This document shows, piece after piece, positions 58,754 through 64,000 of a stretch of 64,000 bases of DNA. The notes under the pieces were generated by a model, which did no database searches, was not told the DNA's origin, and saw nothing but the letters and a program-made list of their open reading frames with translations. The stretch's first letter is position 1, and every line of letters begins with the position of its first letter. The DNA is from Candidatus Zixiibacteriota bacterium (GTDB taxonomy: Bacteria; Zixibacteria; MSB-5A5; DG-27): the NCBI GenBank assembly GCA_030605835.1, contig JAUWHO010000035.1, forward strand, positions 62,001 to 126,000, given 5' to 3'. Made by a program: the position numbers and the translations under genes.

Positions 58754-59877
58754 CTATCTCTGCTCCAATCGGCGGCCGCGCCCCCCCTCTATATAGAAAC
58801 TGCTCGAGCTCTCTCTGGGGACAGACTCGACCTGCCCTCGCCTGCTGGTGGCTATGAAAACCTGTCCTCCGCTCAGCATCGAACTTAAGACTGCCCTCGT
58901 TCTGGTCTCATCCAATTCAGAGAAAACCTCATCCAAGATTAGAATCGGTGCTTCTCCCTTTATCTGGGCGATGTATTCCCCGGCGACGAGCTTTAACGCC
59001 AGGAGAGCTGAACGCATCTGCCCCTGAGAGCCAAATTGCCTAATGTCATGCCTCTCAATTTTCATTTCAAGATCGTCCCGATGGGGACCGACGGTGGTGC
59101 TCCCTAAGATCAGTTCCTTCTTGAGATTTTTTGCAAGCCTCTCGAGGATCTGCTCCCGCAAAGGTTCACGGGTGTTAAGCCTGCCGGAAATCTGATAGGA
59201 GATCTCCATCTTCTCTTCGGTGTCGGTAATCTGCTGGTAGAAGTCGGGGAGTTTAGCTCTCAGGAAATTTGTGAAGTTGTCTCTGGTGGAAATTATCTCC
59301 CCCCCGAATTCCGCCAACTGGTCTGACCAGCCGGACAACTGCTCGGTTAACTTCCTGGAGGTCTCCTCTCCACGGTGTTCCTTCAAAAAACGGTTTCTCT
59401 GGGATAGAACCCGCTGGTATCTGCTGAGGTTGGCGAGGTATCTTTTGGAAGTCTGAGAGAGAATAATATCCAGGAAAGTTCTTCTCTCTTCTGGAGGTCC
59501 TGAGATGATGGTAATCTCTTCGGGGGCGATTGAAACCACCGAAAAAATCCCCACCAGGTCGGATAACCTCCGGCGGGGAACTGAATTTATCTTCAGACTT
59601 CTTTTGTTATTTACATCGAACCCGTATTCAATGGTAACTTTTTTTTTTGAAAGTAACCACTCCCCACCAGGCGAGCATAGTTGCTCCCAAAGCTTATCTG
59701 CGTCTGTATTTTTGCACCTCTTTGGGATTTCCCCAGGCAGAGACAATGGATCGCCTCTAAAATATTAGTCTTGCCCCCAGCGTTTGGGCCCAGGAGAATA
59801 TTAACCTTCGGCGAGAAATCCAGTCGCTCGCTTTTGATGTTGCGGAAGTTCTCTATTTCGATCGACTCTATGTACAT
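58754..59877 (-). CDS. recF: DNA replication and repair protein RecF, split into two frames at an A10 tract
   Basis: N part MYIESIEIENFRNIKSERLDFSPKVNILLGPNAGGKTNILEAI (start 59877); C part VTIEYGFDVNNKRSLKINS...GSQGQMRSALLALKLVAGEYI...ILDEVFSELDETR; frames meet at 59639-59648. Confidence 0.88.
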
Positions 59878-59893
59878 TGAAGTACTTATCTCT

Positions 59894-60427
59894 TTAAGAC
59901 GGCTGGGCGAAGCCACACATCATGGAGAACAACAACAGAAACAGCAGCGCTTGAATAATCCAGCCGATCATACAGACGCCGACCGCCCGCAGGGTGCTGG
60001 TATAATCAAGAGCCTGTCTCACCGCAATCACCATCGCCACCAGCATCCAGACTGAGGCTATGAAAAAGACGACACCGGTCAGCCCCGGAATGATACCGAA
60101 CACCCGAATCAGCCCCGGGGAACTCGCAAAGCCGACGCTCCGCAAAAGCTGTCCGACATTCGCACGGGTCTGCGGCTCCGGAAGAAGTCTCGTGCCTATG
60201 AGGTAAGTCAGATACGCCCAGACAAACCAACTCATGAGCGCCATAATCGTTCCAGTAAAGATGCCGCCGGCGCCTCCCTGCGCAATGCTTCCTATCCCGG
60301 CGGCAACGCTGGAAAGAACGACAACCCCCATGGCTTGACGCATCGCAGTGGTGTCGGCCTCCACCTCTTCATACAGATGCACATCAAGCTTGGCGGCGCG
60401 GATTATACGATCTTTGAAATTAGCCAT
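59894..60427 (-). CDS. YIP1-family-like membrane protein
   Basis: MANFKDRIIRAAKLDVHLYEEVEADTTAMRQAMGVVVLSSVAAGIGS; several TM helices. Confidence 0.7.
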   Translation of the reverse strand: MANFKDRIIRAAKLDVHLYEEVEADTTAMRQAMGVVVLSSVAAGIGSIAQGGAGGIFTGTIMALMSWFVWAYLTYLIGTRLLPEPQTRANVGQLLRSVGFASSPGLIRVFGIIPGLTGVVFFIASVWMLVAMVIAVRQALDYTSTLRAVGVCMIGWIIQALLFLLLFSMMCGFAQPS

Positions 60428-60467
60428 TGGGTAATCCTGTCCAGTCTAATACTGTACTTCCTTTTGC

Positions 60468-61673
60468 TCACTTTCTTACTCTTTCCTTTTCTGCTTTAAA
60501 AGCCTCCAACCGGATAGAAAGGTGATACAGTTCATTTATGAATCTGTACTCACCCAGAATTTCGGTTTCACAAATAACACCCAATTTTTTCATTCTGGTC
60601 AGGAAATTATCAAAGCCCTTCCGCTCTTTCTCTGGAATCTTTGCCCGAACCTCCTTGCGCTGGAAAGTTGCTCCAAGTGGCACTTTCCCAATTTTCCTTA
60701 AGATTGAGCGATAAGTGTCACTTCTCAAGGCCCGGTATACCTGGCGGTCCAAGTACTTCATCCCCACTATCTCTGCTGCTTGAAGCAAGCCCTCTTTGGC
60801 ATCGTGTTTATCAATATTACCATCCCCATCCTTCCAGAATATAGCATCTCCAACCTCATGCATAAGCATAGGAAACCCCCCAGACAATCGCACCATTAAG
60901 GACAAAGCCTCCGGCTCGATAGACATACCTTGCTTGTCAAAAGTGTTCGTGAAGAACTCTTGTGATTCAGCCTCACTCATGGGACGTAATTCTATGATGT
61001 CGAAAATCCTGGCCACTGAGGGTTGGTGCTTAATCAGGTCATCCCTTCTTTCTGGAATTCCAACAAGAATAAGAAGGAGAGGCAGAGAATCACGCGCCGT
61101 CGCTAACTCATCAACAAAACTCTTCAGAAACTCTGAAAACTCTGGTATGGTGGTAATGCCATTTAAATCATCTAATATCAAAACTAACCCTTTTTTCGTA
61201 TCTTTGACTGTGTCATACACCTTCCTGACCGCAGGTTGAAAGTTCTCTAATAGTGTAAGTAACTCTGATTCATTCTTGGTGAAATCCACACCAAAACCGA
61301 AGAGTGTTACCCCTCTAATATATTGCCCGAAGACTTCTCTCAATTTCTCGAACAGTGACTTGTCCGTAAGTTCTTGGAAAAGCCTTTGAAAAATGACTCT
61401 GGTCATTGTCTCAAGCGTTCTTACTCCCCCCAGATAGCAATGACTTCCTATGAAATCATGCTCCTTCTCTGCTAGATAATGAATAATGCCTGCCAGAGAA
61501 CTCTTGCCTATTCCACGCTCCCCCATGATGAAAAGGTTCTGATTGCTACCGCCTTTGGTTTGCTTCACAGCTCGATCTAATCTCTGTATCTCTTCAGAAC
61601 GAGCTACAAAGTATTCAACGGAGACTGGTTTACCCGGGCTGAAGGGACTCTCCTTTGTCACAAGATTTGCCAC
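60468..61673 (-). CDS. AAA+ ATPase (Orc1/Cdc6 or archaeal ATPase-like, P-loop)
   Basis: YFVARSEEIQRLDRAV, IMGERGIGKSSLAGIIHYLA (Walker A), LVLILDDLNGI (Walker B), LSGGFPMLMHEVGDAIFW, wHTH-like C-terminus. Confidence 0.82.
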   Translation of the reverse strand: MANLVTKESPFSPGKPVSVEYFVARSEEIQRLDRAVKQTKGGSNQNLFIMGERGIGKSSLAGIIHYLAEKEHDFIGSHCYLGGVRTLETMTRVIFQRLFQELTDKSLFEKLREVFGQYIRGVTLFGFGVDFTKNESELLTLLENFQPAVRKVYDTVKDTKKGLVLILDDLNGITTIPEFSEFLKSFVDELATARDSLPLLLILVGIPERRDDLIKHQPSVARIFDIIELRPMSEAESQEFFTNTFDKQGMSIEPEALSLMVRLSGGFPMLMHEVGDAIFWKDGDGNIDKHDAKEGLLQAAEIVGMKYLDRQVYRALRSDTYRSILRKIGKVPLGATFQRKEVRAKIPEKERKGFDNFLTRMKKLGVICETEILGEYRFINELYHLSIRLEAFKAEKERVRK

Positions 61674-61752
61674 TCTGTTCCTCCGTTGTTAGTCACAAGA
61701 CTTGACATTTGTAAAAGGGCTCTGCCCAGCCCAGCACCCGTTTTTCAAGTTG

Positions 61753-61791
61753 GGTCGGGACCGAAGCCCGCCTAAGGCGGACGTGTCCTGA
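61753..61791. repeat. Nested palindrome
   Basis: Outer ggtcgggac...gtcctgacc with inner ccgcct-a-aggcgg; same architecture as 37601-37642. Confidence 0.65.
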
Positions 61792-61804
61792 CCGCCTTTG
61801 ACCC

Positions 61805-61831
61805 GGAAAACTAAACGTTTCCGCTACAATT
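61805..61831 (+). repeat. 27-bp element, copy 1
   Basis: ggaaaactaaacgtttccgctacaatt; 24/27 identical to 62231-62257. Confidence 0.8.
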
Positions 61832-61834
61832 AAG

Positions 61835-62137
61835 TCAACTCCTCTCTGCACGAATCCCTGAGAGTTCTAATACGCGTTCTGACCAGTCCTCTGCCTGTTC
61901 ACTTATCTCCTCGCTATTCAGATTATCTCGACTCCATAGTGCTAGCTGAAGCTGAAGCTCAACTAACTGCTCTTGTATTTCCAGTGAGACATTGGAGGCA
62001 ATCCATTCAATCATGAATTTGCTTTCCACTAAGAGACCGGAGACGGCCTTGGCGTTGGCAGGATTCTCGATGAAGCTTGACACTCGGGCTAAATTCGCGG
62101 CAAGCCCTGCCAATTGAATCTCAACCGGCTCTGACAT
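61835..62137 (-). CDS. Small hypothetical helical protein
   Basis: MSEPVEIQLAGLAANLARVSSFIENPANAKAVSG...; the ORF extension to 62227 translates repeat DNA (MGSLGASAPG), so the internal Met is preferred. Confidence 0.5.
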   Translation of the reverse strand: MSEPVEIQLAGLAANLARVSSFIENPANAKAVSGLLVESKFMIEWIASNVSLEIQEQLVELQLQLALWSRDNLNSEEISEQAEDWSERVLELSGIRAERS

Positions 62138-62230
62138 AAATCGCTGTCGGATAGTCTCAAGCCTTTCCGTTGAATCTAGATTGCTCACGACATGAATCCC
62201 TGGGGCAGAGGCCCCAAGGCTACCCAATCT

Positions 62231-62268: not shown

Positions 62269-63384
62269 TTAATCCATCAACCTTAAGGGCATTAGGAGGA
62301 ACATATACTCCTCGTTCTCCTCGTAACGATTCGGCCTCGCCACGCCAGCAGTGGTAGGCGTGTCAAGCTCAAAGATGAGCTCATCGGAATCAACCTGCTT
62401 CACTACGTCCAGGAGGTAGCTGGCATTGTAGCCGATGTCCATTTCCTTACCGGAGTAATTCGCCGGCAGGGTCTCACGGGCCTCCCCACCGATGTCGAAA
62501 TTCGTGGCCGTGAGCTCCATCGAGGTCCCCTTCAAAGAGAGCTTGATCTGATGGGTGAGGGCATTCGAGAGAATCGCTACCCTCCTGACAGTCTGTCCGA
62601 AATCGTCCCTGGCCACTACCAGTTTATTCACGTTATCCTTGGGAATGACCTGATCGTAGTTGGGATACGGTCCCTCCAACAGCCGGGTGGTCAACAGGGC
62701 ATCACCGAAATCGAAGCTTAAATTACTCTCCCCGAAAATCACTCCGATATTCCCCTCATAGTCCGCAAATATCCTGACGAAATAGTCCAGGGCCTTGGGG
62801 GGGACGATTATATCATTGGTCAATCTCTTTATCTTGGTCTTCGCATGCTCTATCTTCGCCAGGCGGTGTCCATCCGTAGCGACCATTAGGAGCTTGTCAG
62901 CCTCGGCGTGCCACAATACACCGTTTAAGGCTGGCCGGGTCTCATCCTTTGAAACTGCAAAGAGGCTTTTTCGTATCATTCTCACCAAACGCTCGCCGTC
63001 CAACTTCACCGCTTTGCTCATATAGACTTCCGGCAAGGCCGGGAAATCCTCCGCCGGAATGCCAGAAATCTTATATCTTCCCCCCTTGCACTTAATATCC
63101 AGACGGTCCTCGGTGCTGGAAACATCGATTTTCCCCGAGGGGAGTTCCCTTACCAGATCCGCAAAGGGCCGCGCCGGAACCGCCAGCGCCCCCTTTTTGC
63201 TGACTGCCGCCTCCACATTAGCAGTCATAGAGACGTCCAGATCTGTGGCTTTGAGGCTGACCTGCTTCTCGTTAGTCTCCAGGAGAAAATTTGATAGAAC
63301 CGGCAACGTAGACCTGACCGGAACAACATTCAAGACTTTCTGTACGACCTCCGCTAACTTCTCTTTTTCCACCGCGAATTTCAT
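62269..63384 (-). CDS. dnaN: DNA polymerase III beta subunit (sliding clamp)
   Basis: MKFAVEKEKLAEVVQKVLNVVPVRSTLPVLSNFLLE...; C-terminal YMFLLMPLRLMD. Confidence 0.96.
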   Translation of the reverse strand: MKFAVEKEKLAEVVQKVLNVVPVRSTLPVLSNFLLETNEKQVSLKATDLDVSMTANVEAAVSKKGALAVPARPFADLVRELPSGKIDVSSTEDRLDIKCKGGRYKISGIPAEDFPALPEVYMSKAVKLDGERLVRMIRKSLFAVSKDETRPALNGVLWHAEADKLLMVATDGHRLAKIEHAKTKIKRLTNDIIVPPKALDYFVRIFADYEGNIGVIFGESNLSFDFGDALLTTRLLEGPYPNYDQVIPKDNVNKLVVARDDFGQTVRRVAILSNALTHQIKLSLKGTSMELTATNFDIGGEARETLPANYSGKEMDIGYNASYLLDVVKQVDSDELIFELDTPTTAGVARPNRYEENEEYMFLLMPLRLMD

Positions 63385-63714: not shown

Positions 63715-64000
63715 TCATGCGAAAAGGGAGTTGATGATACTGTCTATCTTATACTTGAAAGCGGGGTTCCGCTTGAGGTTTTCTTTGACCTGATTGCAGG
63801 CATGGATGACGGTGGAATGGTCCCGGCCTCCGAAGCGCAGACCGATCGATTTGAGCGGGCTTTTGGTGAGAATGCGTGCCAGATACATCGCCACCTGTCT
63901 GGCCAAGACCACCTCCTGGGTTTTCTTTTTTGCCCACATCATCTCTTCTGGGATCTCAAAGGTTTCCGCAACAAGCTTTTGAATCTGCTCGATGGAGACC
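63715..64000 (-). CDS. dnaA: Chromosomal replication initiator protein DnaA, C-terminal part (runs off right edge)
   Basis: VSIEQIQKLVAETFEIPEEMMWAKKKTQEVVLARQVAMYLARILTKSPLKSIGLRFGGRDHSTVIHACNQV, the domain IV signature. Confidence 0.97.
   Translation of the reverse strand, partial: VSIEQIQKLVAETFEIPEEMMWAKKKTQEVVLARQVAMYLARILTKSPLKSIGLRFGGRDHSTVIHACNQVKENLKRNPAFKYKIDSIINSLFA

Follow-up and report, generated by a model that had tools for sequence, protein, structure and literature searches.

A long A tract splits recF between two frames in three families of Candidatus Zixiibacteriota: a case for programmed recoding

To our knowledge, conserved recoding of cellular genes is rare and concerns prfB, dnaX and a few others. 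In bacteria, A tracts of nine or more residues give efficient slippage in vivo, and the dnaX gene of Thermus thermophilus uses an A9 tract; the presence of tRNA-Lys(CUU) is a condition that was invoked for the use of slippage over ribosomal shifting by this gene (PMC5009743). The two-ORF dnaX genes carry a tract that is mostly A10, and transcriptional realignment has been predicted for them (PMC3711429). According to Antonov et al. (PMC3711429), a single frameshift direction is a sign of ribosomal frameshifting and orthologs that differ in direction serve to classify a case as slippage, although this is not a strict requirement. It should also be emphasized that tRNA-Lys(CUU) is not an absolute bar to the use of A_AAA_AAG in insertion sequences (PMC4066793). 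No report of recF recoding (by slippage or by programmed or slippery frameshifting) was found in the open-licence literature, where a notice in supplementary tables is possible, and recF is not mentioned in the accessible parts of the main survey or of the main review. The present analysis strongly supports programmed recoding at an A tract of recF in some Zixibacteria.

The recF locus of the window

The analyzed window is a stretch of 64,000 nucleotides from a Candidatus Zixiibacteriota genome. Its recF gene lies on the minus strand (58754-59877) and is broken by an A10 tract (59639-59648, T10 on the plus strand), all the recF sequence past the tract being in the -1 frame. From its start at 59877, the gene reads MYIESIEIENFRN...GPNAGGKTN...GYFQKKK, then LPLNTGSM up to a stop at 59611. 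This zero-frame ORF (59611-59877, minus strand; MYIESIEIENF...GPNAGGKTN...FQKKKLPLNTGSM*) ends eight codons past the tract, carries the N-terminus of RecF with its Walker A motif and matches positions 1-71 of the family model TIGR00611 (E 4.5e-23). The -1-frame continuation (58754-59638, minus strand; VTIEYGF... to 58754) runs from RecF residue 81 to the end and matches positions 79-338 of the same model (E 1.3e-72); its ORF is open upstream to 59746. The sequence-only reading had described a recF split at A10 with the rest in the -1 frame, which direct reading and the matches of both frames confirm, and the codons that it gave for the junction (TTT CAA AAA AAA AAG TTA in the zero frame, FQKKKVTIEYG once joined) are exactly those found. 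The A_AAA_AAG heptamer to which it drew attention occupies the 3′ end of the tract, in the zero frame (59638-59644, minus strand; codons CAA AAA AAA AAG).

The solved RecF structure 5z67 can be aligned with the joined reading over residues 1-351 of the latter. The gene can be recognized as recF by the family model, which covers both parts, by the Walker A and later ATPase motifs and by its place at the origin locus. It lies downstream of dnaA and dnaN on the same strand: dnaN (62269-63384, minus strand; Pfam DNA_pol3_beta domains) belongs to the same origin cluster and the dnaA C-terminus (63715-63999, minus strand; Pfam Bac_DnaA_C) runs off the window. From this dnaA-dnaN-recF context, the gene is the orthologous recF locus, and no second copy or paralog of recF was found in the genome of the window. 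Three ORFs of the same strand as recF separate it from dnaN (59894-62227): a Yip1-like ORF (59894-60427), an AAA_16/nSTAND ATPase ORF (60468-61673) and an ORF without assigned function (61835-62227).

Distribution and constraint of the split

The survey concerned 133 genomes of Candidatus Zixiibacteriota, the searches by class and by phylum giving the same 133. The joined RecF protein used as a query found a match in 43 of the 58 genomes of relatives, many of which carry an intact recF. A two-frame split near residue 80 was found in eight genomes, including that of the window: one from the family of the window (f1), five from family f10 and two from family f14. In these three very diverged families, all the recF genes found (8/8) are split at the homologous codon, and the survey of all 133 genomes revealed no further case at this site. 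The comparison with relatives that the sequence-only reading had proposed thus showed the same site in seven of them. The junction tract is A9 (n = 1), A10 (n = 6) or A11 (n = 1), with junction codons.AA or CTA followed by AAA AAA AAG (last codon AAA in genome G057), and all eight genes continue in the -1 frame. In the 26 intact relatives inspected, there is no A tract at the junction site and the three lysines of the junction are absent. In the f10 and f14 genomes, recF appears to lie directly after dnaN and to be followed by a coaX-like gene.

Families f10 and f14 make up a single clade (100/99), which groups with the window and the intact family f3 (91/86). Therefore, the eight sequences are not independent and the number of independent origins is at most two. 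A single origin of the A tract is not rejected (p-AU 0.278); one gain followed by a loss in f3 and two separate gains both fit the data.

Elsewhere, a scan of named genomes returned full-length intact RecF, such a scan being blind to split cases. The split pattern, when sought in 82 genomes from the phylum to which a Calditrichota record belongs, had five matches versus seven for the reversed-pattern control, and none of them encodes RecF. About 30 of the 133 Zixibacteria genomes have no detectable recF, including whole families such as f9, f13 and f16, so that parts of the phylum can dispense with recF. One genome of family f7 has a full-length recF match with one internal TAA (G092:C62:2581-3657).

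The split genes are nonetheless under purifying selection. For the closest pair (G017/G048, dS ~1.1), the N part has a dN/dS of 0.11 and the C part one of 0.10; this equal constraint indicates that both halves are needed. Between genera with a split recF, synonymous sites are near saturation. The tract itself varies in length by substitution: CAA AAA AAA AAG gives A10, CTA AAA AAA AAG gives A9 (through CTA) and CAA AAA AAA AAA T gives A11 (through the change of AAG to AAA). No frame-restoring net indel was found in the tract among the eight split genes. Since in-frame reversion should be easy in a homopolymer but is never seen here, the off-frame state itself seems to be favored and kept. Furthermore, the codon preceding the lysines, which lies upstream of the -1 heptamer, ends in A in all eight genes (CAA in five, GAA in two and CTA in one), although CAA represents only 2/19 to 1/9 of the Gln codons in several split recF genes and CTA 5/41 of the Leu codons. 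The product of the codon frequencies for such an A-ending codon is 3.1e-6, or 3.5e-5 when thinned to one sequence per genus; as the rows are related, these values are guides and not exact probabilities. Overall, the tract is conserved in the orthologs beyond what the protein and codon usage need.

Long tracts are scarce in these genomes. The genome of the window (2.68 Mb) has only eight distinct A/T tracts of at least nine residues, two of them A10; this rarity, together with the same tract, codon and offset in seven relatives, argues for more than chance. Most of the split-recF genomes have few A10 runs: A tracts of at least 10 residues number two to five per f10 genome and two in the genome of the window, one of them in recF in each case. 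The genome with A11 in recF (G057) has several further tracts of at least 10 residues and the one with A9 (G043) has none. A general sloppiness of homopolymers was considered and rejected, as the other long A tracts lie between genes, at the ends of genes or within open frames. No second gene with a recurrent A10 split was seen in these genomes, and dnaX has no A tract longer than seven in the Zixibacteria genomes examined.

Besides these eight genomes with a junction homopolymer of about nine or more A residues, a ninth (G016, family f12) has a recF broken at a T9 tract (codons ATT TTT TTT TAA), the remainder being again in the -1 frame. The tract (288-296 of locus L046, G016:C1:275500-276950) is immediately followed by TAA and lies just past the Walker A helix, not at the site of the A tracts. 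Such a T tract, lying elsewhere in the gene, is more readily explained by polymerase slippage than by a ribosomal cassette that would have moved. This genome is a single-contig assembly, in which a homopolymer error at the T9 is possible, although three of its other A/T tracts of 10 residues sit inside long open frames.

Joining of the two frames

Some recoding of recF very probably occurs, and transcriptional slippage is probably what joins the frames, rather than ribosomal frameshifting. RNA polymerase would add (or remove) A residues on the A9-A11 tract in a fraction of the transcripts. Those mRNAs with one extra A (or two fewer) would join the Walker A segment to the -1 remainder and yield full-length RecF (...QKKKV...), in which KKK (or KK) would fall in an apparent variable loop before a strand, as judged from the alignment with intact relatives. 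Unslipped mRNAs would meet a stop 0-13 codons from the tract and give a dead-end fragment of about 80-100 residues, which is unlikely to work since it lacks the later ATPase motifs.

The frames could otherwise be joined during translation, by programmed -1 ribosomal frameshifting at A_AAA_AAG (dnaX/IS3 type), which we consider rather unlikely. In its favor, an X_XXY_YYZ heptamer is correctly phased in the zero frame of every split gene (A_AAA_AAG in seven out of eight, A_AAA_AAA in the remaining one), and few motifs shift as readily in E. coli as A_AAA_AAG (PMC4066793). The offset is also -1 in every split recF, which the classifier of PMC3711429 would assign to ribosomal shifting; however, if the tract has one common origin, a single direction is expected anyway and the classifier becomes uninformative. 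Conversely, the stimulators that usually would be sought, a downstream stem-loop or SD-like element, as the sequence-only reading had suggested, are not conserved among the split genes: the folds of the downstream 40-80 nt have z values of -2.1 to +1.5 and share no structure (pseudoknots being outside the model), and no consistent SD-like stimulator was found. All eight split-recF genomes and G016 encode tRNA-Lys(CUU), and tRNA-Lys(UUU) is not the only reader of AAG in these genomes. In addition, conservation reaches upstream of the heptamer, and the T9 of G016 is not the A_AAA_AAG motif. The dnaX-type heptamer is thus present as proposed from the letters alone, but as a mechanism it is not the better reading; the slippage that was then listed as an alternative fits better with a tract length conserved beyond the heptamer, the lack of conserved stimulators and the presence of tRNA-Lys(CUU). 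The genome of the window carries one tRNA-Lys(CUU) gene beside three for tRNA-Lys(UUU), of which two are in tandem (loci L154, L158 and L174; G000 C35:10415, C27:21696 and C51:357641-357797).

Reversible phase variation, in which the tract length would change in the DNA and the assemblies would have caught the OFF state, appears very improbable. Contingency by way of homopolymer tracts within genes is known (see PMC2831843), but in this between-genome comparison all eight genes are off by the same -1 and none is in frame, the tract lengths differ by substitution only, and purifying selection acts on recF, a housekeeping gene, across dS > 1. It is still harder to believe that the C part starts internally and that RecF works as a split protein made of two chains. 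Four of the five f10 genes do have a -1-frame ATG 22 and/or 33 codons past the junction, whereas both f14 genes lack any -1-frame start between the last stop (codon -23) and codon +40, and the window has its earliest -1-frame starts past the junction at codons +28 and +33; such starts would remove a conserved stretch of RecF, and an internal start, which is not conserved, was rejected. Finally, a sequencing or assembly error (one A missing, as also envisaged by the sequence-only reading) or a recent pseudogene would suit a homopolymer site in genomes that are mostly fragmented drafts, probably metagenome-assembled, but is refuted for the group by the same tract and -1 offset in eight genomes that belong to three families, in fragmented and single-contig assemblies alike, and by purifying selection on both halves of recF.

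Under transcriptional slippage, recF in these families would be a programmed, slippage-dependent gene whose output of RecF would be a fixed fraction, a proposal that we hold to be reasonably likely. In E. coli, too much RecF is harmful. The fixed fraction would act as a dosage limiter, and its most likely benefit would be a low, fixed RecF level. More tentatively, slippage on the conserved A tract (and independently on T9 in f12) may be an ancient selected switch that sets the RecF output of the clade, perhaps sensing nucleotide pools or polymerase state and so coupling transcription to recombination repair; a tie between RecF supply and nucleotide pools is speculation. If the proposal is true, the dosage of a recombination-repair protein is controlled by slippage across families, and the natural variants of the tract (A9, A10, A11 and T9) offer material for testing what keeps such sites. 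It should also be emphasized that annotation pipelines, when run on these genomes, will report recF as absent or as a pseudogene.

Comparison with known slippage and frameshifting systems

The nearest system is found in Thermus thermophilus, whose dnaX, slipping on A9, resembles recF by a long A tract in a replication/repair gene, by the presence of two lysine tRNAs and by slippage that is expected to fix the ratio of the products (PMC5009743). However, the long product of Thermus dnaX is read in the zero frame and its short gamma product is functional, whereas the zero frame of recF gives the short fragment and the protein would require slippage. The two-ORF dnaX genes with A7-A10 tracts (Chlorobium and others; Antonov et al. 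2013, PMC3711429) share with recF the need for a -1 transition (in the DNA) at an A tract, but they concern another gene and their truncated product functions as a subunit of the clamp loader. Like E. coli dnaX and the IS3 family, which use -1 ribosomal frameshifting, recF has A_AAA_AAG in the right phase; it differs from them by stimulators that are not conserved, a longer tract and the presence of tRNA-Lys(CUU). Lastly, poly-A tracts mask a frame break in recF as they do in the slippage-rescued indels of Buchnera and Blochmannia. These indels reflect decay in reduced AT-rich genomes, whereas the hosts of the split recF have genomes of 2-5 Mb with few A10 runs (G+C is about half in the window) and several families share the site.
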